Shown here one piece after another: positions 1,608-13,526 of a stretch of 39,465 nucleotides of DNA. This DNA is from Candidatus Gastranaerophilales bacterium (lineage in GTDB: Bacteria; Cyanobacteriota; Vampirovibrionia; Gastranaerophilales; Gastranaerophilaceae): positions 1-39,465 of the forward strand of contig CALUTJ010000023.1 in assembly GCA_944323685.1 (NCBI GenBank), read 5' to 3'. The position numbers were made by a program, and so were the translations under genes. A model generated the notes under the pieces. The model was not told where the DNA came from. It searched no databases and saw only the letters and a program-made list of their open reading frames with translations. How positions within the stretch are numbered: position 1 is the first letter of the stretch; every line of letters begins with the position of its first letter.

Positions 1608-2435
1608 ATGAATTCCTCCAGAGTAATTGAAATATTCAGACAGAGTGCAACATTTGCTTTAGGTAAAATGCTTGTTAACCAGACTCAGGATTTTTTTGAA
1701 ACCCTTGGCGAAATGGGCATAAGAACCTGTCAGGTGTTTTATCTTACAGTAAAGGCTCTCATTCAAAGACAAATGAAATGGAAACTGATTATAGATCAGT
1801 GTTCACGTTTTGCTGTTGATTCTCTGCCCATAACTCTGACCATTGTCGGTATGGTTTCGGTTATTATCTCTATGCAGGTTGCACCTGAGATGGTTAAACA
1901 GGGCGGAGAAAAATTTGTCGGAGCGCTGATGGCGGTTGTTACAACAAGAGAACTCGGTGTTATTATGTCAGGTTTTGCAATTATTTCAATGATAGGCTCC
2001 TCTTATGCTTCAGAAATTGCGACAATGAGGGTAACAGAGCAGATTGATGCCCTTAAAGTGCTAAAGGTTAACCCGATAGAGTATCTTTTTATTCCGCGTG
2101 TTGTTGCGGGTTTTGTTATGATGCCCGTTGTTGTGATAATAGCCTCCACTTTCGGGCTTATATGTTCGGGAATTGCCGCACACTTAAGCGCCCATATAAG
2201 CAGACTTAACTATATAAGCTCACTGTGGCAGGGGTTGTATCTTAAAGATATTTTTGTATCTCTGGGGAAAGCAGCCTGCTTCGGCGCCGCAATTGCCATA
2301 ATCAGCAGCACATGCGGCTACCTTGCTTACGGCGGAGCAAAAGGTGTAGGGCTTTCTACAACCAAAGCCGTTGTATGGTCGTTTGTTGCGATTTGCATAA
2401 TCGACTATATTTTCGCGTCAATATTCTTCTTTTAA
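1608..2435 (+). CDS. mlaE: MlaE-family lipid ABC transporter permease
   Basis: This 275-residue inner-membrane permease belongs to the MlaE/YrbE (DUF140) family, which with an MlaF ATPase and an MCE protein moves phospholipids between inner and outer membranes. The family signature is clear at residues 144-156 (EQIDALKVLKVNP), followed by PRVVAGFVMMPVVV. Several hydrophobic segments span residues 60-85, 110-140, 165-190 and 220-275, and the amphipathic N-terminus is typical. It is first in mlaE-mlaF-mlaD order, 54 bases after leuC. No Shine-Dalgarno precedes ATG 1608; a -10-like TACAAT ends at 1600, so translation may be leaderless. In plants and cyanobacteria the equivalent is TGD1-like. MlaA, MlaB and MlaC homologues are not in this window. 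Confidence 0.93.
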   Translation: MNSSRVIEIFRQSATFALGKMLVNQTQDFFETLGEMGIRTCQVFYLTVKALIQRQMKWKLIIDQCSRFAVDSLPITLTIVGMVSVIISMQVAPEMVKQGGEKFVGALMAVVTTRELGVIMSGFAIISMIGSSYASEIATMRVTEQIDALKVLKVNPIEYLFIPRVVAGFVMMPVVVIIASTFGLICSGIAAHLSAHISRLNYISSLWQGLYLKDIFVSLGKAACFGAAIAIISSTCGYLAYGGAKGVGLSTTKAVVWSFVAICIIDYIFASIFFF

Positions 2436-2482
2436 AAAAACACAGAAAATTTAACTTATACTAACCCACAAGGACAAAAACA

Positions 2483-3208
2483 ATGAGCATAGATGTAAGA
2501 CATCTTAAAAAATCTTTTAAAGACAAAACCGTTCTGGATGACATATCGTTTAAGGTTGAAGACGGAGAGATTCTGGCGGTTGTCGGACTCAGCGGTGCAG
2601 GGAAAAGCACCATATTAAAACTTATTTGCGGGCTAACTCAACCCGACAGCGGGGAAATTATTGTTTCACCGGGGGACATAGCCATGGTTTTTCAGTATTC
2701 AGCGTTGTTTGACTCCTTGGACGTTTTTGAAAATATAGCTTTTGCACTCAAAGAGAGAAAAGAATTCAAAAACAAATACACTCAAAAGCAGCTGGAAGAA
2801 ATAGTTGCCCAAAAATTGAAACTTGTCGGACTGGAAGGCATTGAAAATAAAATGCCGCACGAACTCTCAGGCGGTATGCAAAAACGCGTAAGTTTTGCAC
2901 GTGCGGTTGTAACAGACCCTAAAACAATTTTATATGACGAACCTACTGCCGGACTTGACCCTGTGTCATCAACAATGATTGAAGATTACATAGTAAGACT
3001 CAAAGACGAGTTCAATCCCGCATCCGTTATTGTTACACACCAATTATCCACCATTCAAAGGTGTGCGTCAAAAGTCATCATGTTGTATAATACAAAAATC
3101 GTATACTCCGGAACCCCTCAGGATATGATAGAAGGCGGAAACGAGTACACAAAACAATTTATAAACGCCTGCATTGACGGCCCCATGAAAGTAGCAGGAA
3201 GCGATTAA
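2483..3208 (+). CDS. mlaF: MlaF-family lipid ABC transporter ATPase
   Basis: This 241-residue cytoplasmic ATPase powers the MlaE permease. All ABC motifs are intact: Walker A GLSGAGKST at 35-43, Q71 of the Q-loop followed by YSALFDSL (typical of MlaF), signature LSGGMQ at 128-133, Walker B ILYDEPTAGLD from 149 and switch H186 in VTHQ. The length matches the family (about 240-270). ATG 2483 has AAGGA 9-10 bases upstream. It sits 47 bases after mlaE and 26 bases before mlaD, consistent with one operon. The C-terminus lacks the extension by which E. coli MlaF subunits swap contacts; whether it dimerises differently is unknown. Confidence 0.93.
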   Translation: MSIDVRHLKKSFKDKTVLDDISFKVEDGEILAVVGLSGAGKSTILKLICGLTQPDSGEIIVSPGDIAMVFQYSALFDSLDVFENIAFALKERKEFKNKYTQKQLEEIVAQKLKLVGLEGIENKMPHELSGGMQKRVSFARAVVTDPKTILYDEPTAGLDPVSSTMIEDYIVRLKDEFNPASVIVTHQLSTIQRCASKVIMLYNTKIVYSGTPQDMIEGGNEYTKQFINACIDGPMKVAGSD

Positions 3209-3234
3209 TAAAAAATAAAAGGAATTTTATAAAA

Positions 3235-4599
3235 ATGCGTTTTTCATCCTCATTTAAAGTCGGTTTATTAACTTTATCAGCACTTATAATATTGATTTTT
3301 TCAATACTATGGATAAAAGGCAGAGCACTTTCAGCCGGCGAAAGGCTGTTTGTAGATTTTAAAGATATTAACGGGATGCGTCCGGGTTCTGCCGTACAGT
3401 TAATGGGGCTTAGGATAGGTCAGGTGGAAGAAATCACACCTGTTTTAACAAACCCTGATGACCCGTATGTAAGGGTAAAGTTTGTTATAACAGAACCTGA
3501 CATAACAATACCTAACGCATCAACAATCTCAATCCAGCAGTCAGGTATTATTGGTGAACAGTTCCTTGAAATTACCCCGCCAAAATTAAGAACCATTTAT
3601 CTTCCGATAAACAAACGCTCACAGGTGCTGCACGCTAATGACAAAGTGCAGATGATTTTGAGCAACAAACCTTATGATGTAGGTAAGGTAAAAAAAATAG
3701 AAATTATCCAGACAAAAACTTTGCCGATAAATATTCAGGAAGAAATAAAAACACCTTCAGCCTACAAGGTAGGTTACATTGTTACTTTGCCGGGGCTTCA
3801 GCTTCCTGACAGGCTTCAGGCCAAGGTTAAAACCGCCGATTCTAAACACTATTTATTCTTAAAACCTTATACAAAAATGGAACTTGCTTATCCTAAATCA
3901 ACCTCAAGATTTACGGTAATTGAACCGTTAAGACTCTCTGACTTTATGGATTTGCAATACAGAGCAGCAATGGCGCTGGCAGAAACAAACGAAAAGCTCA
4001 GTGCACTTATGTCTGACGACATTATTGCCGATTTAAAAAATATCGTAGCAAATGTTGATATGCTGACAATAAAAGCCAACTCAACACTTGACAAAACACA
4101 GGCTCTGCTTGATTCTTCAAGAAAAGATCTGGATTCTTTGATGGTTACAACAGACAAACTGTCAGGCAAAATTATTGTTCTTACTGACAACATTAACAAA
4201 ATTATAGGCGACGAAGACTTTAAAGACACACTGATGTCAACAACAAAATCAATTGACAGATTATCGCAGAATCTGAACAAAGTTCTTGAAGATCCAAAAA
4301 CAAAAGAAACTATGGATAACCTGAATGTTGCAAGTAAGAATATATCCGAAATTGCCACTTACGTAAACACAATGACAAAAGACCCTGTCTTAAAAGAACA
4401 GATTAATACAACGGTTACAAAGTTCAATAAAGCACTCGATGACCTGTCCTGTACATTAGAAACTGTTAACGGACTTACAACGGACAAAAAAGAAGAACTC
4501 AATGACACAATTAACAATGTTAACGAAACTTCCAAAAACCTTCGCAAGTTCTCGGAAAAATTGAACAAACGATTCCTGCTGTTCAGGTTAATGTTCTAA
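3235..4599 (+). CDS. mlaD: MlaD-like MCE-domain protein with long C-terminal helical region
   Basis: This 454-residue membrane-anchored MCE (mammalian cell entry) protein is the periplasmic substrate-binding component of the Mla transporter. Residues 9-27 form a signal-anchor helix, followed by an MCE domain at about 37-117 (LFVDFKDINGMRPGSAVQL, then IGEQFLEI). A further segment at about 120-235 (KVGYIVTLPGLQL) is not part of the E. coli protein. Residues 240-450 are polar and heptad-like, rich in D, N, K, T and L, with repeated -NLNK-, -DNINK- and -NNVNETSKNL- units, and so are probably long alpha helices. It is about 2.5 times the length of E. coli MlaD (183). The shape suggests a tube or needle-like bridge as in PqiB/YebT or mycobacterial Mce proteins; that is inferred. 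A good AAAGGA precedes ATG 3235. Confidence 0.88.
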   Translation: MRFSSSFKVGLLTLSALIILIFSILWIKGRALSAGERLFVDFKDINGMRPGSAVQLMGLRIGQVEEITPVLTNPDDPYVRVKFVITEPDITIPNASTISIQQSGIIGEQFLEITPPKLRTIYLPINKRSQVLHANDKVQMILSNKPYDVGKVKKIEIIQTKTLPINIQEEIKTPSAYKVGYIVTLPGLQLPDRLQAKVKTADSKHYLFLKPYTKMELAYPKSTSRFTVIEPLRLSDFMDLQYRAAMALAETNEKLSALMSDDIIADLKNIVANVDMLTIKANSTLDKTQALLDSSRKDLDSLMVTTDKLSGKIIVLTDNINKIIGDEDFKDTLMSTTKSIDRLSQNLNKVLEDPKTKETMDNLNVASKNISEIATYVNTMTKDPVLKEQINTTVTKFNKALDDLSCTLETVNGLTTDKKEELNDTINNVNETSKNLRKFSEKLNKRFLLFRLMF

Positions 4600-6572: not shown

Positions 6573-8450
6573 ATGAGTATTCAAAAATCCAACCTGCCCG
6601 CAGAGGTAAAACAAACCCTTGCCGTAATACCGGAGCTAAGCGGTTCTTATCAGTATTTTGATAACAACGGCGAAATTATTTACGTGGGCAAAGCCAAAAA
6701 CTTAAAAAAAAGAGTCTACAGCTACTTTAACAAACACCACGACTCGCCAAAACTCAGGGTTATGGTGCCTCAGATTGCAAAAATCCAGTTCATTGTCACC
6801 GACAGCGAGGTTGAGGCTCTTATTCTTGAATCTCACCTTATAAAGAAACACAAACCAAAATACAATGTACTTTTAAAAGACGATAAAAAATTCCCGTATT
6901 TCGTCATAACTGATGAAGAATACCCGAGAATTATAGTTGCACGAAAAGCCAACAAAAATAAAATCAAAGGCAAATATTTCGGCCCATATACAGATTCACG
7001 TGCAATGTACGCAACTTTGGATTTGATAAAAAAGTTGTTTCCGCTAAAACAATGCAAAAATCCTAAATTTAAAGACCGCCCCTGCCTGTATTACCACATA
7101 GGACGCTGTATGGCACCATGTCAGAGGCTTGTCACACCTGAAGAATACAAAAAGGTTTTAAAAAACGTGGAACTTTTTTTAACGGGTAAACAAAAAGAAC
7201 TGGTTGACGCGTTAAAAAAAGAGATGGAAAAATACGCAGCTACAGAGGACTTTGAAAAAGCTGCAAGGTATCGTGACAGCTGGCTTGATGTACAAAAAAC
7301 AATGGAACATCAAAAAGTCGTATTTGAAAACACAAACATAAATCAGGATATAATCGCGGTCTACAGCGAAGGCAGTCTTTTTGTTGTATCTCTTTTACAA
7401 ATACGACAGGGCAGACTTACTGATAAAAAAGATTTTCAATTTTCTAACACAGAAACTTTTGAACAGACAGAAGAAAATTTTGCAAACGAAAGCGAAGTTC
7501 TGGCAGCATTTTTAAAAGAATACTATACACTTGCATCAGAATTTGATATACCTAATACTGTTGTTGTTCCCCGTGTTTTAGAAAAAGAAGATATCGAACT
7601 CTATGCAAAATGGCTGGAATCAGTTGCTAATAAAAAAGTAAAAATAACAGATTCGCCAACAAAAAGAAATATTGAGCTTTTAAACCTTGCTCAAAAAAAT
7701 GCAAAATTCTATTTTGAAAAAGTAAAACTTCAAAAATTGACGGAAATTCAAAGAGACTACAACGAAGTAGGCAGCTATATTCAAGAAAAACTCGGTCTGT
7801 CAAAATTCCCGTATGTTGTGGAGTGCTTTGATATCTCACATATTCAGGGTACAAACACGGTTGCTTCAATGGTTACTTTTGAAAACGGACTGCCCAAGAA
7901 ATCACGATACAGAAAATTTAAGGTGAAATCTACGGAATCAAAACCCGATGACTTTAAATCCTTGCAGGAGGTTGTGGAAAGAAGATACTTCGGCAAGTTG
8001 ACAGAAACTCTGCCAATGCCGGATTTAATAATAATAGACGGCGGCAAAGGCCAGTTATCATCCGTTCTGGAAATCTTTGATGCACACAATTTTCACCCTG
8101 ATGTTGTTTCTCTTGCCAAAAGACTGGAGGAAGTCTTTAAACCTCACCAATCCAATCCCGTAATATTCCCGATTAATTCACCGGCTTTGTACTTTTTCCA
8201 GAGAATAAGAGACGAAGCTCACAGATTTGCAATAACCTTCCACAGGCAGCTGCGCGGCAAAAAAGCCACTGAATCGGTACTTGATGAAATAAAAGGGCTG
8301 TCTAAAGCCAATAAAGAAATACTAATGCACGAATTTAAAGACGTTAAAAAGATTTCTCAGGCAAGTTACGAACAGTTGAAAGAAAAAACAAACGCCCGTA
8401 CGGCAAAGGCTGTTTACAACTTTTTTAATCCGAATATACAAATTACGTAA
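6573..8450 (+). CDS. uvrC: Excinuclease ABC subunit C (UvrC)
   Basis: This 625-residue UvrC makes both incisions around bulky DNA lesions after recruitment by UvrAB. Domains in order: GIY-YIG nuclease (about 23-100; GSYQYF and IIYVGKAKNLKKRV), a cysteine cluster (CKNPKFKDRPCLYYHIGRC and APC, about 157-185), a UVR motif for UvrB contact (about 200-240), the RNase H-like nuclease domain (VECFDISHIQGTNTVASMV, IIDGGKGQL, RDEAHRFAI) and C-terminal helix-hairpin-helix repeats. The length is normal (about 600-625). Its 3' end overlaps the convergent PilB-like gene by 8 bases. It lacks a Shine-Dalgarno sequence and may be read from a leaderless mRNA. Confidence 0.97.
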   Translation: MSIQKSNLPAEVKQTLAVIPELSGSYQYFDNNGEIIYVGKAKNLKKRVYSYFNKHHDSPKLRVMVPQIAKIQFIVTDSEVEALILESHLIKKHKPKYNVLLKDDKKFPYFVITDEEYPRIIVARKANKNKIKGKYFGPYTDSRAMYATLDLIKKLFPLKQCKNPKFKDRPCLYYHIGRCMAPCQRLVTPEEYKKVLKNVELFLTGKQKELVDALKKEMEKYAATEDFEKAARYRDSWLDVQKTMEHQKVVFENTNINQDIIAVYSEGSLFVVSLLQIRQGRLTDKKDFQFSNTETFEQTEENFANESEVLAAFLKEYYTLASEFDIPNTVVVPRVLEKEDIELYAKWLESVANKKVKITDSPTKRNIELLNLAQKNAKFYFEKVKLQKLTEIQRDYNEVGSYIQEKLGLSKFPYVVECFDISHIQGTNTVASMVTFENGLPKKSRYRKFKVKSTESKPDDFKSLQEVVERRYFGKLTETLPMPDLIIIDGGKGQLSSVLEIFDAHNFHPDVVSLAKRLEEVFKPHQSNPVIFPINSPALYFFQRIRDEAHRFAITFHRQLRGKKATESVLDEIKGLSKANKEILMHEFKDVKKISQASYEQLKEKTNARTAKAVYNFFNPNIQIT

Positions 8451-9837
8451 AGTATTTTTCAAGAGCCTGTTTATCAAAAACTTCTATACTGTCTTTGCTG
8501 TGTAAAAATATCAGGCAAGTAAGCATTGATTTGAACATGGAAAATTCGTTTAAAGAAAACTTCTTCATCAAATCAGCGATATTTTCAGCCAAAAATTCAG
8601 TTATAAGCGTTTTATTTTTAAATACAAGCGAGGTAAAATAATCAAGCCCCTCTTTTGTGTTTATACCTTCAAAATACAGGATATCCGGTGACTGAAACTC
8701 GATAAACCTCATTGCTTTATCAAGGTTAAAGCCTATATGCTCGTTGAGTTCACACTGGTTAACATTTTCGAGATTATATTTTGTGATAGATTCAATTGTC
8801 ATTACATTTTTGTTTTGAGTAGCTATCTCCGACAAAATAGAATAAATCATATGCGTTTTTCCGCATAAAGAAGAACCGCAAACAAGGATTATTCCGGGAG
8901 CATTAATAGCTTTTGCTATTGTGTTTATCTTTTTGTCATCAAGTCCACACTCGGAAAGTTTTTTCGGAGGCTTATATATTTTGACGGAAATTCTCTCGCC
9001 GTGTATTGTAGGGAAGGCGGATATACTGGCAATAAGAGCCACATCATCAACTTTGAAACTCAATTTTCCCAGCTGTGGAAGCTCAGACACAGTAGGGTCA
9101 AGATTGGATAACGTTTTCAACTTTGCAATAAATGAAGAAACAAGTATGGAAGGGATTTCGCCGGTTAATATATTTTGCGAGTTGTCTTTAAATATAACAC
9201 TCAATCCGTTTGGCACATGTTCAAAAAAGAGTTCATGCACGTCTTGCAATATAGCCTGCTTTAATACAGCACGAATCATTTTTTGTATATGCTCGTCAGA
9301 AAGCCCCGAAGAAACCTCAGTTCCGTTCAAGACCTCTCTCCAGTCATATTTGGGTTTGTCATCATCAATAAAAATCTGCCCGACAGAACTTGAGCTTGTG
9401 TAATACTCTTCTATCTTTTTTAAAATTGCATGTTCGGAAGATATTACGGGTTCTATCTCGCATTTTGCATCTTCTACAATTTTATCTATTGCAAACAAAT
9501 CCAGCGGGTCTGACATTGCCACAGTTAATATGCCTTCAATTTCAAAAAGCGGTATGACCTTATATTTTTGAGCGTTATTAAGATTGATATAGCTCAAACA
9601 TTTTTTATCAAGGGAATAATCCTCAAGATTTACGTATGGAATATGGAGTTTGCCCTCCAAAAATTTAAGCAGCGTATCTTCTTCGATAAGTCCTGATGAA
9701 ATCAAAACCTGACCTATGTTTACGTGCTGGGCATCGGCAACCTGTTGTGCGGTTTCCAAATCCTCGTATTTGATAAGATTGTCACGCACAAGGTCATATT
9801 TTAATTTTTCGAGTGTTTTATTTCTTACAAACTCCAT
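8443..9837 (-). CDS. Degenerate PilB/GspE-like protein with MshEN-type N-terminal domain
   Basis: This 464-residue protein is related to type IV pilus/type II secretion assembly ATPases. Residues 25-145 resemble the GspE-N/MshEN domain (NIGQVLISSGLIEEDTLLKF), which binds cyclic di-GMP in some PilB/MshE proteins; the usual R of the RLGQ motif is N here. Residues 170-300 match the PilB N2 region (FPTIHGERISVKIY). The ATPase core is eroded: Walker A reads GSSLCGKTH (321-329) where GPTGSGKTTT is usual, the Walker B segment PDILYFEGIN (384-393) replaces PDIxxVGEIRD, and the His-box and zinc-binding tetracysteine loop are absent. It retains GKT, so nucleotide binding is possible, but normal pilus-motor activity looks unlikely. 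It is last in an operon after a histidine kinase and a response regulator, implying a regulatory or output role (inference). Confidence 0.82.
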   Translation of the reverse strand: MEFVRNKTLEKLKYDLVRDNLIKYEDLETAQQVADAQHVNIGQVLISSGLIEEDTLLKFLEGKLHIPYVNLEDYSLDKKCLSYINLNNAQKYKVIPLFEIEGILTVAMSDPLDLFAIDKIVEDAKCEIEPVISSEHAILKKIEEYYTSSSSVGQIFIDDDKPKYDWREVLNGTEVSSGLSDEHIQKMIRAVLKQAILQDVHELFFEHVPNGLSVIFKDNSQNILTGEIPSILVSSFIAKLKTLSNLDPTVSELPQLGKLSFKVDDVALIASISAFPTIHGERISVKIYKPPKKLSECGLDDKKINTIAKAINAPGIILVCGSSLCGKTHMIYSILSEIATQNKNVMTIESITKYNLENVNQCELNEHIGFNLDKAMRFIEFQSPDILYFEGINTKEGLDYFTSLVFKNKTLITEFLAENIADLMKKFSLNEFSMFKSMLTCLIFLHSKDSIEVFDKQALEKYFT

Positions 9838-9851
9838 TGTTTTGCCCGCTT

Positions 9852-10223
9852 TTATTTAAGATATTCTTTTACTTTATTTATAACTTCGTCAAGTTCAAAA
9901 GGTTTGGTTATATATTCGTTTACGCCTGTTTCCTGTCCGATTAACTTGTCATCCTCCTGAGAACGTGCTGTCACCATGATAATCGGAATATCTTTGTATT
10001 TGTTGTCATATTTTAAAAGACGGCTGATTTTGTATCCGTTAATTTTAGGCATCATAACATCAAGTATCATCAAATCCGGCATGATTTCTTTTGCCATATT
10101 AAGCCCGGCCTCGCCGTCATAAGCGCAAAAACATTCGTACCCCTGCGCCTCAAGCATAAATTTAAGAGTTTCTACAATATCCTGCTCGTCATCAACAATA
10201 AGAATTTTTTTATTATCACTCAT
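9852..10223 (-). CDS. CheY-like single-domain response regulator
   Basis: This 123-residue stand-alone receiver domain has the acidic pocket (VDDEQ at residues 10-14), phospho-acceptor D55 in LMILDVMMPKING, the switch threonine in MVTARS and the conserved lysine in ITKPFE. It has no output domain, so it should act by protein-protein contact, as CheY or PilG/PilH do. It begins 6 bases after the histidine kinase stop, with GGAGG inside the kinase 3' end, and lies 14 bases before the PilB-like gene. The natural reading is that the kinase phosphorylates this protein and the PilB-like protein is its partner; only the gene order supports that. Confidence 0.92.
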   Translation of the reverse strand: MSDNKKILIVDDEQDIVETLKFMLEAQGYECFCAYDGEAGLNMAKEIMPDLMILDVMMPKINGYKISRLLKYDNKYKDIPIIMVTARSQEDDKLIGQETGVNEYITKPFELDEVINKVKEYLK

Positions 10224-10229
10224 TTATAG

Positions 10230-12344
10230 CTATACCTCCGCCAAATCGTTTTGAGAAACCTCTTTGTTTAAAGAATTTTCCACAAACTCAAACAGTTCTT
10301 TTGCATCGGCTCCGCCTTCAGGAAAGGTTGCCGATGAATACAATATATCATATTTTGAGTCTGTCTGCTCTTGAGTATCGGGTTTTATTGTACTTTCGAT
10401 TTTCTTTTCTATAAAGCTCTGGGCAAATTTATCGGCCTCTGGAATCATTACAGCAAAGAAATTTGCATCCTCTTGAGAAAAATAGGCCTCTTTTGTGTTT
10501 GCCGTCTTTCTTATAATAGAAATTTTCCCTTCTTGAATTTCTGAAATAAAAGACTTATCTTTACCCTGAAATTCTTTTATAAGTACAAGCAAAAGGCTTT
10601 GATTACAAGCTTTTGCTTTGGCAATCTCTTTATCCAGATCAAGAATAAATTTTTCTTTTTCACTCAAAACAGGAATAACAAAAGAAAAAGTCGTACCGCG
10701 GTTTAGCTCGCTTTCTACCCATATAAAACCTTTATGTGCTTCTATAAGCTGTTTGGCAATGGGAAGCCCCAGACCGGTTCCGCCGTTTTTACGGTTTAGA
10801 GAATTTTCTATCTGCTGGAACTGGTCAAAGACTTTTTTCTGATCCTCGGGTGCTATGCCTATGCCGCTGTCTTTTACGGAAACTTTTATATAATTTTCAT
10901 AAAACGATACATTTTCAATACCGGCAAGTTTAGTCCTGTCAATATCTTTTAACGAAATATTTTCTGTTTTAATTATTATGTTTCCGTTTTCGTTTGTAAA
11001 TTTTATTGCGTTTGAAACAAGGTTAGACATAACCTGCTCAATCCTCTGGTTATCATAGTAAGTTCGGGCAATGTTATCGTCTTTTTCAAGAGTAAGTGTA
11101 ATATTTTTATCTTTTGCAACATTTTCAAACGTATTTTTTATAAACTCAACGGGAGTGTTAATATTGGCTTTTTCGAATTTAAAATCCATTTTTCCGGCTT
11201 CGACTTTTGATAAATCCAACAGGTCGTTAATAATACCCGAAAGCCTTGTCACATTGCGCTGGGCCATGTTTAAGAATTTATCCATAATAGAACTTACCTC
11301 TCCGGCTTTACCGCTGAGGCAAATTTCCAAAGAATTTTTTATTGCCGTTAAAGGAGTTCTTAACTCATGAGAAACAATCGAAATAAATTCCGATTTCAAA
11401 CGTTCCAGTTTTTCAAGTTTTATGTTTGTTTTCTTGATTTCATCGTATAAAGAGGCATTTTCTAAAGGTAGTGACACCTGTCTTGCAAGAGTTTGAAAAC
11501 ATGTTGTGTCTTCTTGCGAAAAATCAGCTTCTCTAAAAACCTCAATAAGTCCGAAAAACTTTTCCCCTACATTTATCGGAGCAAAAAGATTGTCAAATTT
11601 CAGGATATTGAGATCGTATTCCTCAAGCGGGTGTTTAATATTTTTTATAACTTTTATGTCGTTAATGTTAATATCATAGGGAATTCTTTTTTTGTCAAAA
11701 AGCGCTCTGTAGCTTAAAATCGCCCTCAGCTTAAGAGAATGTTCAAGTCTTGGAGAAACAGCGTAAAGCGAATTTATTATTAAATCAATATTGTGCTCGT
11801 CATTGAACACAAGCGTTGACGAAAGTGAAAAACTCAAGCTCTTTTCCAACCCGTCTATCATTATGTTTATTAGTTTTTGTTTGTCTAATGAACCTGCAAG
11901 CCCCGTTGACGTATTATACAAAACATCAAGCTGGTAAAGACTTTTTGCAAGTTCACTGTTATTTGTGGAAAGTGTATCGATAGCTTTTTTGAGTTTAAGA
12001 TTTGTATTTACGCACGCAGCCAGCACCTTTTCATTAACAGGTTTTGTTACATAAGCATTGGTCAGCTTTAAAATCTCGACATTGTCTGTATCGGGATTGA
12101 TGACGGAAATTATTGCAATATTTTCTCTGATATTAAACGCTTGCAGCTTTTTGCAAAGAATAAGCGCATCAGGATTCTTTATATTTTCATCAATTACAAT
12201 AAGAGATATCAGGTTTTTTTCAGCATAATTAAGTATTGCAGACTCATCGGTTGAAACAATAACAGCCGTTGAAGTCTTGGCAAGTGCCTGCGTAATTATC
12301 TTATTAAGGTTTTCATCATCCGATACTAACAATATTTTTGGCAT
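10230..12344 (-). CDS. Hybrid sensor histidine kinase: REC-GAF-HisKA-HATPase-degenerate GGDEF
   Basis: This 704-residue cytoplasmic protein has no membrane segment. In order: an N-terminal receiver domain (DD at 9-10, D52 in IVIDEN, K in VTKPVNE); a GAF-like sensor (about 150-300); HisKA with H326 in SIVSHELRTPLTAIK; HATPase_c with the N-box VMSNLVSNAIKF, G1 DSGIGIAPED, a QFQQI F-box and G2 GGTGLGLPIAK; then about 150 residues resembling a diguanylate cyclase fold. There, LDKEIAKAKACNQSLLLVLI and FFAVMIPEAD recall GGDEF flanks and SSATFPEGGADAKEL recalls the domain end, but the GGDEF motif is replaced (SQEDANF), so it cannot be a normal cyclase. It heads an operon with a CheY-like regulator and a PilB-like protein. 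No Shine-Dalgarno precedes ATG 12344. Confidence 0.88.
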   Translation of the reverse strand: MPKILLVSDDENLNKIITQALAKTSTAVIVSTDESAILNYAEKNLISLIVIDENIKNPDALILCKKLQAFNIRENIAIISVINPDTDNVEILKLTNAYVTKPVNEKVLAACVNTNLKLKKAIDTLSTNNSELAKSLYQLDVLYNTSTGLAGSLDKQKLINIMIDGLEKSLSFSLSSTLVFNDEHNIDLIINSLYAVSPRLEHSLKLRAILSYRALFDKKRIPYDININDIKVIKNIKHPLEEYDLNILKFDNLFAPINVGEKFFGLIEVFREADFSQEDTTCFQTLARQVSLPLENASLYDEIKKTNIKLEKLERLKSEFISIVSHELRTPLTAIKNSLEICLSGKAGEVSSIMDKFLNMAQRNVTRLSGIINDLLDLSKVEAGKMDFKFEKANINTPVEFIKNTFENVAKDKNITLTLEKDDNIARTYYDNQRIEQVMSNLVSNAIKFTNENGNIIIKTENISLKDIDRTKLAGIENVSFYENYIKVSVKDSGIGIAPEDQKKVFDQFQQIENSLNRKNGGTGLGLPIAKQLIEAHKGFIWVESELNRGTTFSFVIPVLSEKEKFILDLDKEIAKAKACNQSLLLVLIKEFQGKDKSFISEIQEGKISIIRKTANTKEAYFSQEDANFFAVMIPEADKFAQSFIEKKIESTIKPDTQEQTDSKYDILYSSATFPEGGADAKELFEFVENSLNKEVSQNDLAEV

Positions 12345-12401: not shown

Positions 12402-13526
12402 TCATTTAATTTTATCGGCAAATTCTTTTGCTATTATTTCGACTATCCTTTTAGAAGCAAGACCGTCCCCGTAAGGGTTTACAGCTTCCGACATTTTTTT
12501 ATACTCGTCCTGATTGTCAAGCAGCTTTTGAACCTCTTCAACAATTTTTTGAGTATCGGTACCGACAAGCTTAACAGTACCGTATTCCACTGCTTCGGGA
12601 CGTTCCGTTGTTGTTCTTAAAACAAGAACAGGCTTGCCTAAAGACGGGGCTTCTTCCTGTACTCCGCCCGAATCTGTCATTATTATGTGAGATTCTTTCA
12701 TCAAAGAACAAAACGGAGCATACTCCATAGGTTCAATAAGATGTATACGTTCTTTTCCGCCTAAAAACTCATTAACCGGCTGCTGCACATTAGGATTCAA
12801 ATGAACCGGATAAACAACCTGTATATCTTTATTTTTTTCAACAAGCTCAAGTACGGCTCTGCAAATATTTCTTATAGGTTCGCCAAAATTTTCTCTTCTG
12901 TGAGAAGTAAGAAGAATTGTTTTAAGCTCCGGATTTAAACCAATATAACTTAAATCCGCTTTATTATTTTCCACTGTATGCAGCAGTGCATCTATAACGG
13001 TATTACCGGTCTTATAAATATGTTGCGCGCTAATGGAAGATTTTACGAGATTGTCGCAGCTTGTTTGGGTCGGTGCAAAATGATAAGAACTCAATGCATC
13101 CGCAAAAACTCTGTTTATCTCTTCAGGGAAAGGGTAAAACTTGTTGAAAGTTCTCAACCCTGCCTCTACATGCCCGACGGGAATTCTTGCATAAAAAGCG
13201 GATAAAGCGGCTGCCATGGATGTCGTTGTATCTCCGTGCACGAGAACAATATCAGGCTTGCTCTGTTCAAAAACATCTTTCATAAGCATAAGAACTTCTG
13301 TTGTAATGCTCCATAAATCCTGATTGGGCTTCATTATATTCAGGTCAAAATCAGGGAATATTTGAAAAAGTTTCAGCACCTGATCAAGCATCTGTCTGTG
13401 TTGTGCCGTTACACATACAATGCTTTTAAAAACATCGGGCTGCTTTTCAAATTCTTTTACCAGCGGCGCCATCTTTATAGCTTCCGGACGTGTTCCGAAT
13501 ACCGTTAAAACTCTGATTTTTGACAT
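12402..13526 (-). CDS. wecB: UDP-N-acetylglucosamine 2-epimerase (non-hydrolysing)
   Basis: This 374-residue enzyme converts UDP-GlcNAc to UDP-ManNAc for surface polysaccharides. Family motifs are all present: GTRPEAIK at 11-18, HGDTTTSMA from H97, GHVEAGLRT with E121, TSHRRENFG with H209-N213, DSGGVQEEAPSLGKP from D285 and RTTTERPEA. The length is normal (about 375). ATG 13526 has AAGGA 9 bases upstream inside a palindrome. It is divergent from mnmA, the two promoters sharing one -35 region. It ends 57 bases before the histidine kinase with no visible terminator, so read-through into the kinase operon is possible. Confidence 0.96.
   Translation of the reverse strand: MSKIRVLTVFGTRPEAIKMAPLVKEFEKQPDVFKSIVCVTAQHRQMLDQVLKLFQIFPDFDLNIMKPNQDLWSITTEVLMLMKDVFEQSKPDIVLVHGDTTTSMAAALSAFYARIPVGHVEAGLRTFNKFYPFPEEINRVFADALSSYHFAPTQTSCDNLVKSSISAQHIYKTGNTVIDALLHTVENNKADLSYIGLNPELKTILLTSHRRENFGEPIRNICRAVLELVEKNKDIQVVYPVHLNPNVQQPVNEFLGGKERIHLIEPMEYAPFCSLMKESHIIMTDSGGVQEEAPSLGKPVLVLRTTTERPEAVEYGTVKLVGTDTQKIVEEVQKLLDNQDEYKKMSEAVNPYGDGLASKRIVEIIAKEFADKIK

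Follow-up and report, generated by a model that had tools for sequence, protein, structure and literature searches.

The window, which is the whole 39,465-nucleotide stretch of DNA analysed here, is contig C23 of the 2.3-Mb draft genome (99.7% complete) of a Candidatus Gastranaerophilales bacterium. Members of this order are non-photosynthetic relatives of cyanobacteria, widespread and little-studied bacteria of gut and aquatic habitats. On the minus strand of the window, three neighbouring genes encode a histidine kinase, a lone receiver protein and a relative of the pilus motor PilB, here termed pPilB. Because this trio is almost universal in the order and survives the loss of pili, the old motor is probably now a signalling part. 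The reading that we favour, and hold to be fairly likely while keeping some reserve, is that the trio constitutes a two-component module that stands by itself. Its effector would be a PilB relative put to new use, working not as a motor but as a switch or scaffold that depends on nucleotide, and its output would be something other than pilus extension.

Conservation of the trio and its separation from pili

The kinase (704 amino acids, 10230..12344) and the receiver (123 amino acids, 9852..10223) are encoded 6 bases apart, and pPilB (464 amino acids, 8443..9837) follows the receiver after 14 bases, exactly as described in an earlier reading of the letters alone (the sequence-only reading). That reading had proposed a phospho-signal operon in which a former pilus motor has become a regulator or output protein. 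The proposal is supported by the order-wide occurrence of the trio, its joint loss, the constraint on all three proteins and the disappearance of motor chemistry from pPilB.

Of 94 genomes of the order, 88 have an ortholog of pPilB; those without are G004, G050, G052, G060, G087 and G088, of which four are at most 80% complete. A sample spanning the phylum listed two members of the order without pPilB, G050 and G350, and gave no recognisable ortholog from beyond the order. Four other matches in that sample, at about 1e-56 to 1e-58, resemble ordinary PilBs, and a search of plasmids with pPilB returned just distant, ordinary homologs of the GspE/PilB type. pPilB forms a single clade (support 100/100). 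The receiver gene lies directly upstream of pPilB in 114 of the 124 loci with room to tell, at a median gap of 10.5 bases, and a kinase gene lies upstream in 107 loci. Where pPilB has moved off, in parts of families f2 and f3, the kinase and receiver remain paired in the cases checked. The trio, whose presence in relatives the sequence-only reading had suggested searching for, is thus conserved across the order. Within the host genus, pPilB and the receiver have a ratio of nonsynonymous to synonymous substitution rates (dN/dS) of about 0.02, a value good to an order of magnitude only since many pairs have reached saturation of dS.

Control of a true pilus or secretion machine elsewhere had been suggested as the role of the trio, together with a search for a second, intact PilB. 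Such a PilB does exist in the host, on contig C11 beside PilC and a secretin. The trio is nevertheless separable from pili. No intact PilB, PilC, PilT-type match or secretin was found in G061 (99% complete) or G055 (97%) by searches that succeed in other relatives; both genomes retain the trio, and their pPilBs have an intact P-loop and ordinary branch lengths. Conversely, G050 (99% complete) has PilB, PilC, PilT and secretin, and searches of it failed to find pPilB, an ortholog of the kinase (at E 1e-95) or the receiver (at 1e-30). The trio can therefore disappear as a whole, and it can do without the pilus machinery. Control of the pilus or a secretion machine is contradicted as a general rule by these three genomes, and as a conserved role pilus control is disfavoured by their patterns of presence and absence. 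None of the loci examined showed pPilB next to a recognised pilus gene.

The intact pilus cluster of the host (genome G000, locus L078) occupies C11:4889-10437 and consists of the secretin gene, a PilB of 766 amino acids and PilC. This PilB carries a long, variable N-terminal extension of about 190 residues that is poorly alignable in other genera. Variation in the trio itself was also seen. Genome G080 has two diverged copies of the whole trio (loci L060 and L061), possibly from two organisms, since the draft is 88% complete with 7% contamination. In several genera of family f1 (L042, L044, L045, L047 and L051) an opposite-strand gene of about 260-270 amino acids lies between the kinase and receiver genes.

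Motor motifs and the MshEN domain of pPilB

pPilB consists of an MshEN domain (Pfam, 62 bits) and a truncated ATPase (T2SSE, 92 bits). Among structures in the PDB it is related to PilB and GspE, with PilBs as the best solved relatives. The AlphaFold2 (AF2) model, with a predicted local distance difference test (pLDDT) score of 82.6, aligns to PilB with a VIA Z of 24.3 and to MshE with cyclic di-GMP (c-di-GMP; 5htl) with a Z of 17.3. The MshEN fold and the PilB N2D/C1 fold are both retained and the C-terminus is shortened, so the MshEN-type N-terminus seen in the sequence-only reading is upheld by both profile and structure. Against the PilB equivalog TIGR02538, pPilB scores 184.5 bits, far below the cut-off of 675.65. 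In sequence and structure, pPilB shares with PilB and GspE of the type II secretion system (TIGR02538, TIGR02533) the MshEN, N2D and C1 folds, Walker A and the Walker B glutamate, which indicates common ancestry. It differs from them in lacking the Asp box, the arginine fingers and the tetracysteine zinc loop, in its short C-terminus and in being unlinked to pilC.

Motifs were counted in 128 distinct orthologs, except that EDPxE and CxxC were counted in 70. Walker A had been described as damaged, a view that is rejected here: GSSLCGKT (residues 321-328, 8854..8877) matches the consensus GxxxxGK[ST], which is intact in 124 of 128 orthologs. The four orthologs without a P-loop (L074-L076, which make up the f6 cases, and L064) all still have E349, K353 and E390. 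The companion claim of a damaged Walker B stands in part, as the catalytic glutamate E390 (8668..8670) is invariant (128/128) whereas the remainder of GEIRD is lost. EDPxE, the Asp box that genuine PilBs of the order retain, occurs in none of 70 orthologs. Its place is taken by E-S-x-x-K (E-S-I-T-K in the window, residues 349-353, 8779..8793), in which E349 and K353 are invariant in all 128. At the arginine-finger positions, which we take to be those aligned with R210 and R225 of EpsE, both arginines are gone, replaced by S271 (112/128) and K286 (125/128). No CxxC pair was found in the C-terminal part of the 70 orthologs, in agreement with the zinc loop having been reported missing. As judged from these positions, pPilB retains residues for nucleotide binding and has lost the composite active site, and it is probably a nucleotide-binding, non-motor protein.

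The distribution of conservation has also been turned around. In ten matched genomes, true PilBs are 46% identical in the MshEN N-terminal half and 77% in the ATPase domain, whereas the values for pPilB are 59% and 43% (63% and 57% leaving out those that have lost the P-loop). Constraint has shifted from the ATPase in true PilB to the N-terminal domain in pPilB, which fits a function that is now carried by the N-terminal surface and not by the engine.

Binding of c-di-GMP by MshEN domains needs two 24-residue motifs, RLGxx..G..LxxxLxxQ, and in MshE a change of the essential first glycine abolished binding (PMC5013675). The leading arginine is dispensable in GSPII-B of PilF, which binds c-di-GMP with lysine or leucine in its place (PMC11731258). 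The MshEN N-terminal half of pPilB (residues 6-71, 9625..9822) carries the near-invariant signature NKTxEKLKYDLVR where motif I would be. None of 128 orthologs satisfies even a relaxed form of the published pattern there, because the essential glycine is lysine (K13 in 126/128) and the glutamine is mostly alanine. Motif II satisfies the relaxed pattern in 83 of 128 and is devoid of the arginine and glutamine, so the glutamine ligands are gone from both motifs. The true PilB of the host satisfies the relaxed pattern in both. The NCBIfam model of the c-di-GMP motif gives pPilB 26.5, against a cut-off of 38. Since motif I fails throughout and motif II is without Arg and Gln, binding of c-di-GMP by pPilB appears unlikely from its residues. 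The possibility of nucleotide sensing through c-di-GMP, raised in the sequence-only reading, is thus weakened, with an inhibitory RxxD-type site surviving only in three early-branching kinase tails.

Kinase and receiver

The kinase contains HisKA (residues 317-384, with H326) and HATPase_c (431-559) domains by Pfam, followed by a tail (about 560-704) recognised by fold as GGDEF-like. Its H-box is intact and its sequence lacks any segment with the hydrophobicity that a membrane helix requires, in keeping with its earlier description as a soluble histidine kinase. Two further regions had been overlooked: a degenerate receiver at residues 4-112, just below the Pfam cut-off, and a region of about 155-296 with sub-threshold Pfam GAF matches, which is probably a GAF domain judging by sequence. 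Across 31 full-length orthologs the catalytic core (H326, N445, the G-boxes and the ATP-lid residues) is kept, unlike the acidic pocket of the N-terminal receiver.

The tail (10233..10679) had been proposed to be a GGDEF fold lacking the motif, and structure prediction recovered that fold. The AF2 model of residues 556-704 has a mean pLDDT of 83, its top Foldseek matches are nearly all GGDEF domains, and VIA-align superposes it on GGDEF with a Z of up to 13.8 (122 residues at 2.6 A). Profile searching of PDB sequences with the tail alignment retrieved no GGDEF, whereas fold comparison did; Pfam matched GGDEF in single relatives' tails only (6 of 41, best E 2e-4). The GG[D/E]EF motif itself is absent from all 41 tails. 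RxxD at I-site spacing is found in only three of them, in the early-branching families f4 and f5, and is absent in the host genus. Many relatives' kinases have no tail, and within the host genus its rate of evolution exceeds that of the kinase core two- to threefold. For these reasons the tail is a relic of a GGDEF domain, dispensable and in the course of erosion.

The receiver (Pfam Response_reg, 98 bits) is complete as a phospho-receiver and lacks an output domain, in agreement with its description as a lone receiver in the sequence-only reading. Its phospho-acceptor site is intact, D11, D12, D55, T85 and K107 being conserved across 63 orthologs. To judge by residue conservation, the kinase and receiver carry the full set of residues for two-component phosphotransfer.

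Proposed signalling model, alternatives and gene neighbourhood

We suggest the following scheme. The kinase would phosphorylate the lone receiver, and the phosphorylated receiver would act through contact with another protein, in the manner of lone receivers: EpsW, a single-domain response regulator, controls the phosphoglycosyl transferase EpsZ by direct binding (PMC12802240). The most likely partner is pPilB, being encoded next to the receiver and lost together with it; the candidate target thus differs from that of EpsW in being derived from PilB rather than a phosphoglycosyl transferase. Docking might most plausibly take place on the four-helix bundle of the pPilB MshEN domain, by analogy with true motors, in which this is where c-di-GMP acts in MshE and PilZ in Xanthomonas PilB; PilZ docks on the N-terminal domain of the latter (PDB 7lko/7lkm). 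Docking could shift pPilB between nucleotide-bound and nucleotide-free, or between oligomeric, states, and the state of pPilB would then be read by a target protein. A more specific version, which we put forward tentatively as possible rather than likely, is that the phospho-receiver has replaced c-di-GMP as the MshEN ligand and that the motor domain, binding ATP without hydrolysing it, has become a switch gated by nucleotide in a non-pilus process throughout the order.

There is precedent for signalling by a PilB fold without pili. For Myxococcus xanthus it has been proposed that PilB, when free of nucleotide, signals for exopolysaccharide production in a way that does not depend on the assembly of pili (PMC5544727). 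The Myxococcus protein combines the roles of motor and signal, whereas here a separate, dedicated paralogue has its own kinase and receiver. From this analogy with Myxococcus PilB, control of the cell envelope or of surface polysaccharide is the best guess for the output. The kinase resembles SgmT, a hybrid GAF-type kinase whose C-terminal GGDEF receptor domain binds c-di-GMP and which signals to a DNA-binding regulator (PMC3509222), in its GAF-type region and C-terminal GGDEF fold; it differs in that its tail is without both known sites and its regulator is a lone receiver. Overall, the trio is best classed as two-component signalling in which a former motor protein is the probable effector. 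In the paper titles and abstracts surveyed, with subscription papers outside the scope, no description of a kinase-receiver-pPilB module was found. If the reading is true, a motor for secretion or pili would clearly have been taken over for signalling and released from its machine, and a dedicated signalling paralogue would be present in nearly all Gastranaerophilales, compared with one reported signalling PilB, that of Myxococcus, which is also a working motor. Natural tests are at hand in relatives that variously lack the P-loop, the GGDEF-like tail, pili or the module.

Several observations weigh against the favoured reading. Loss of the P-loop in f6 and L064, where pPilB persists, means that nucleotide binding is not required everywhere. 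In 10 loci pPilB does not adjoin the receiver. G061 and G055 are draft genomes; as they are sisters in the pPilB tree, pilus loss was probably a single event. Among the loci examined there is also no neighbour conserved across the order that would point to an output, and for that reason inference of the output from the neighbourhood was dropped.

Other explanations were considered. pPilB might be a regulator or subunit of the true pilus motor, joining PilB hexamers or competing for the platform protein under the gate of the two-component pair. Its PilB ancestry and retained MshEN and ATPase folds would suit this, as would the presence of PilB in most trio-holding genomes and the documented mixed motor pairs PilB/TfpB and PilT/PilU (PMC11656802). 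We consider it rather unlikely, given that the trio persists under unchanged constraint in G061 and G055, which have no PilB, PilC, PilT or secretin, that G050 has pilus genes and no trio, and that no recognised pilus gene adjoined pPilB at the loci inspected. It is quite improbable that pPilB is a still-working ATPase of low rate, the motor of an unrecognised machine. The frequencies of Walker A (124/128) and of the Walker B glutamate (128/128) speak for it, but the Asp box has become E-S-x-x-K, the equivalents of EpsE R210 and R225 are Ser and Lys, the zinc loop and C-terminal part are gone, the f6 proteins and L064 have lost the P-loop yet are kept, and G061 and G055 offer no PilC-type platform.

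A slim chance is left to the module being a c-di-GMP sensor, with the kinase tail and pPilB MshEN domain binding the ligand through altered sites. The host genome has 8 GGDEF-domain matches, the PilF domain binds despite Arg being Lys or Leu (PMC11731258), motif II is partly kept by the relaxed pattern (83/128), and RxxD survives in three tails of early-branching families. These points are countered by lysine in place of the motif I glycine in 126 of 128 orthologs, a glycine whose change abolished binding in MshE (PMC5013675), by the loss of both Gln ligands, by the NCBIfam score (26.5 vs 38) and by the absence of the tail in many relatives. Lastly, loss of several motifs could be taken as a sign that the trio is a decaying pseudogene or a chance neighbourhood, which is scarcely credible: it is contradicted by order-wide conservation, and the dN/dS of about 0.02, the invariant residues and co-loss are likewise against it.

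Turning to the genes around the favoured signalling module, its neighbours in the window are uvrC and wecB, and elsewhere they include MlaE lipid-transport genes (several f1 relatives) and an AsmA/YhdP-like gene (L072). The window itself contains MlaE, ABC ATPase and MlaD lipid-transport genes at 1608-4599, and an MlaE gene directly adjoins pPilB in other genera (L042, L044 and L051), an arrangement that is recurrent and not universal. In family f3 (L063, L065, L066, L073 and L077), pPilB lies 17-99 bases upstream of two same-strand genes sized like ATP synthase beta and epsilon, an identity confirmed by Pfam for L063 and L066 only. A UDP-N-acetylglucosamine (UDP-GlcNAc) 2-epimerase gene (window 12402-13526) precedes the kinase by 57 bases on the same strand, and the two may be transcribed together in the host genus, in an arrangement not conserved elsewhere.

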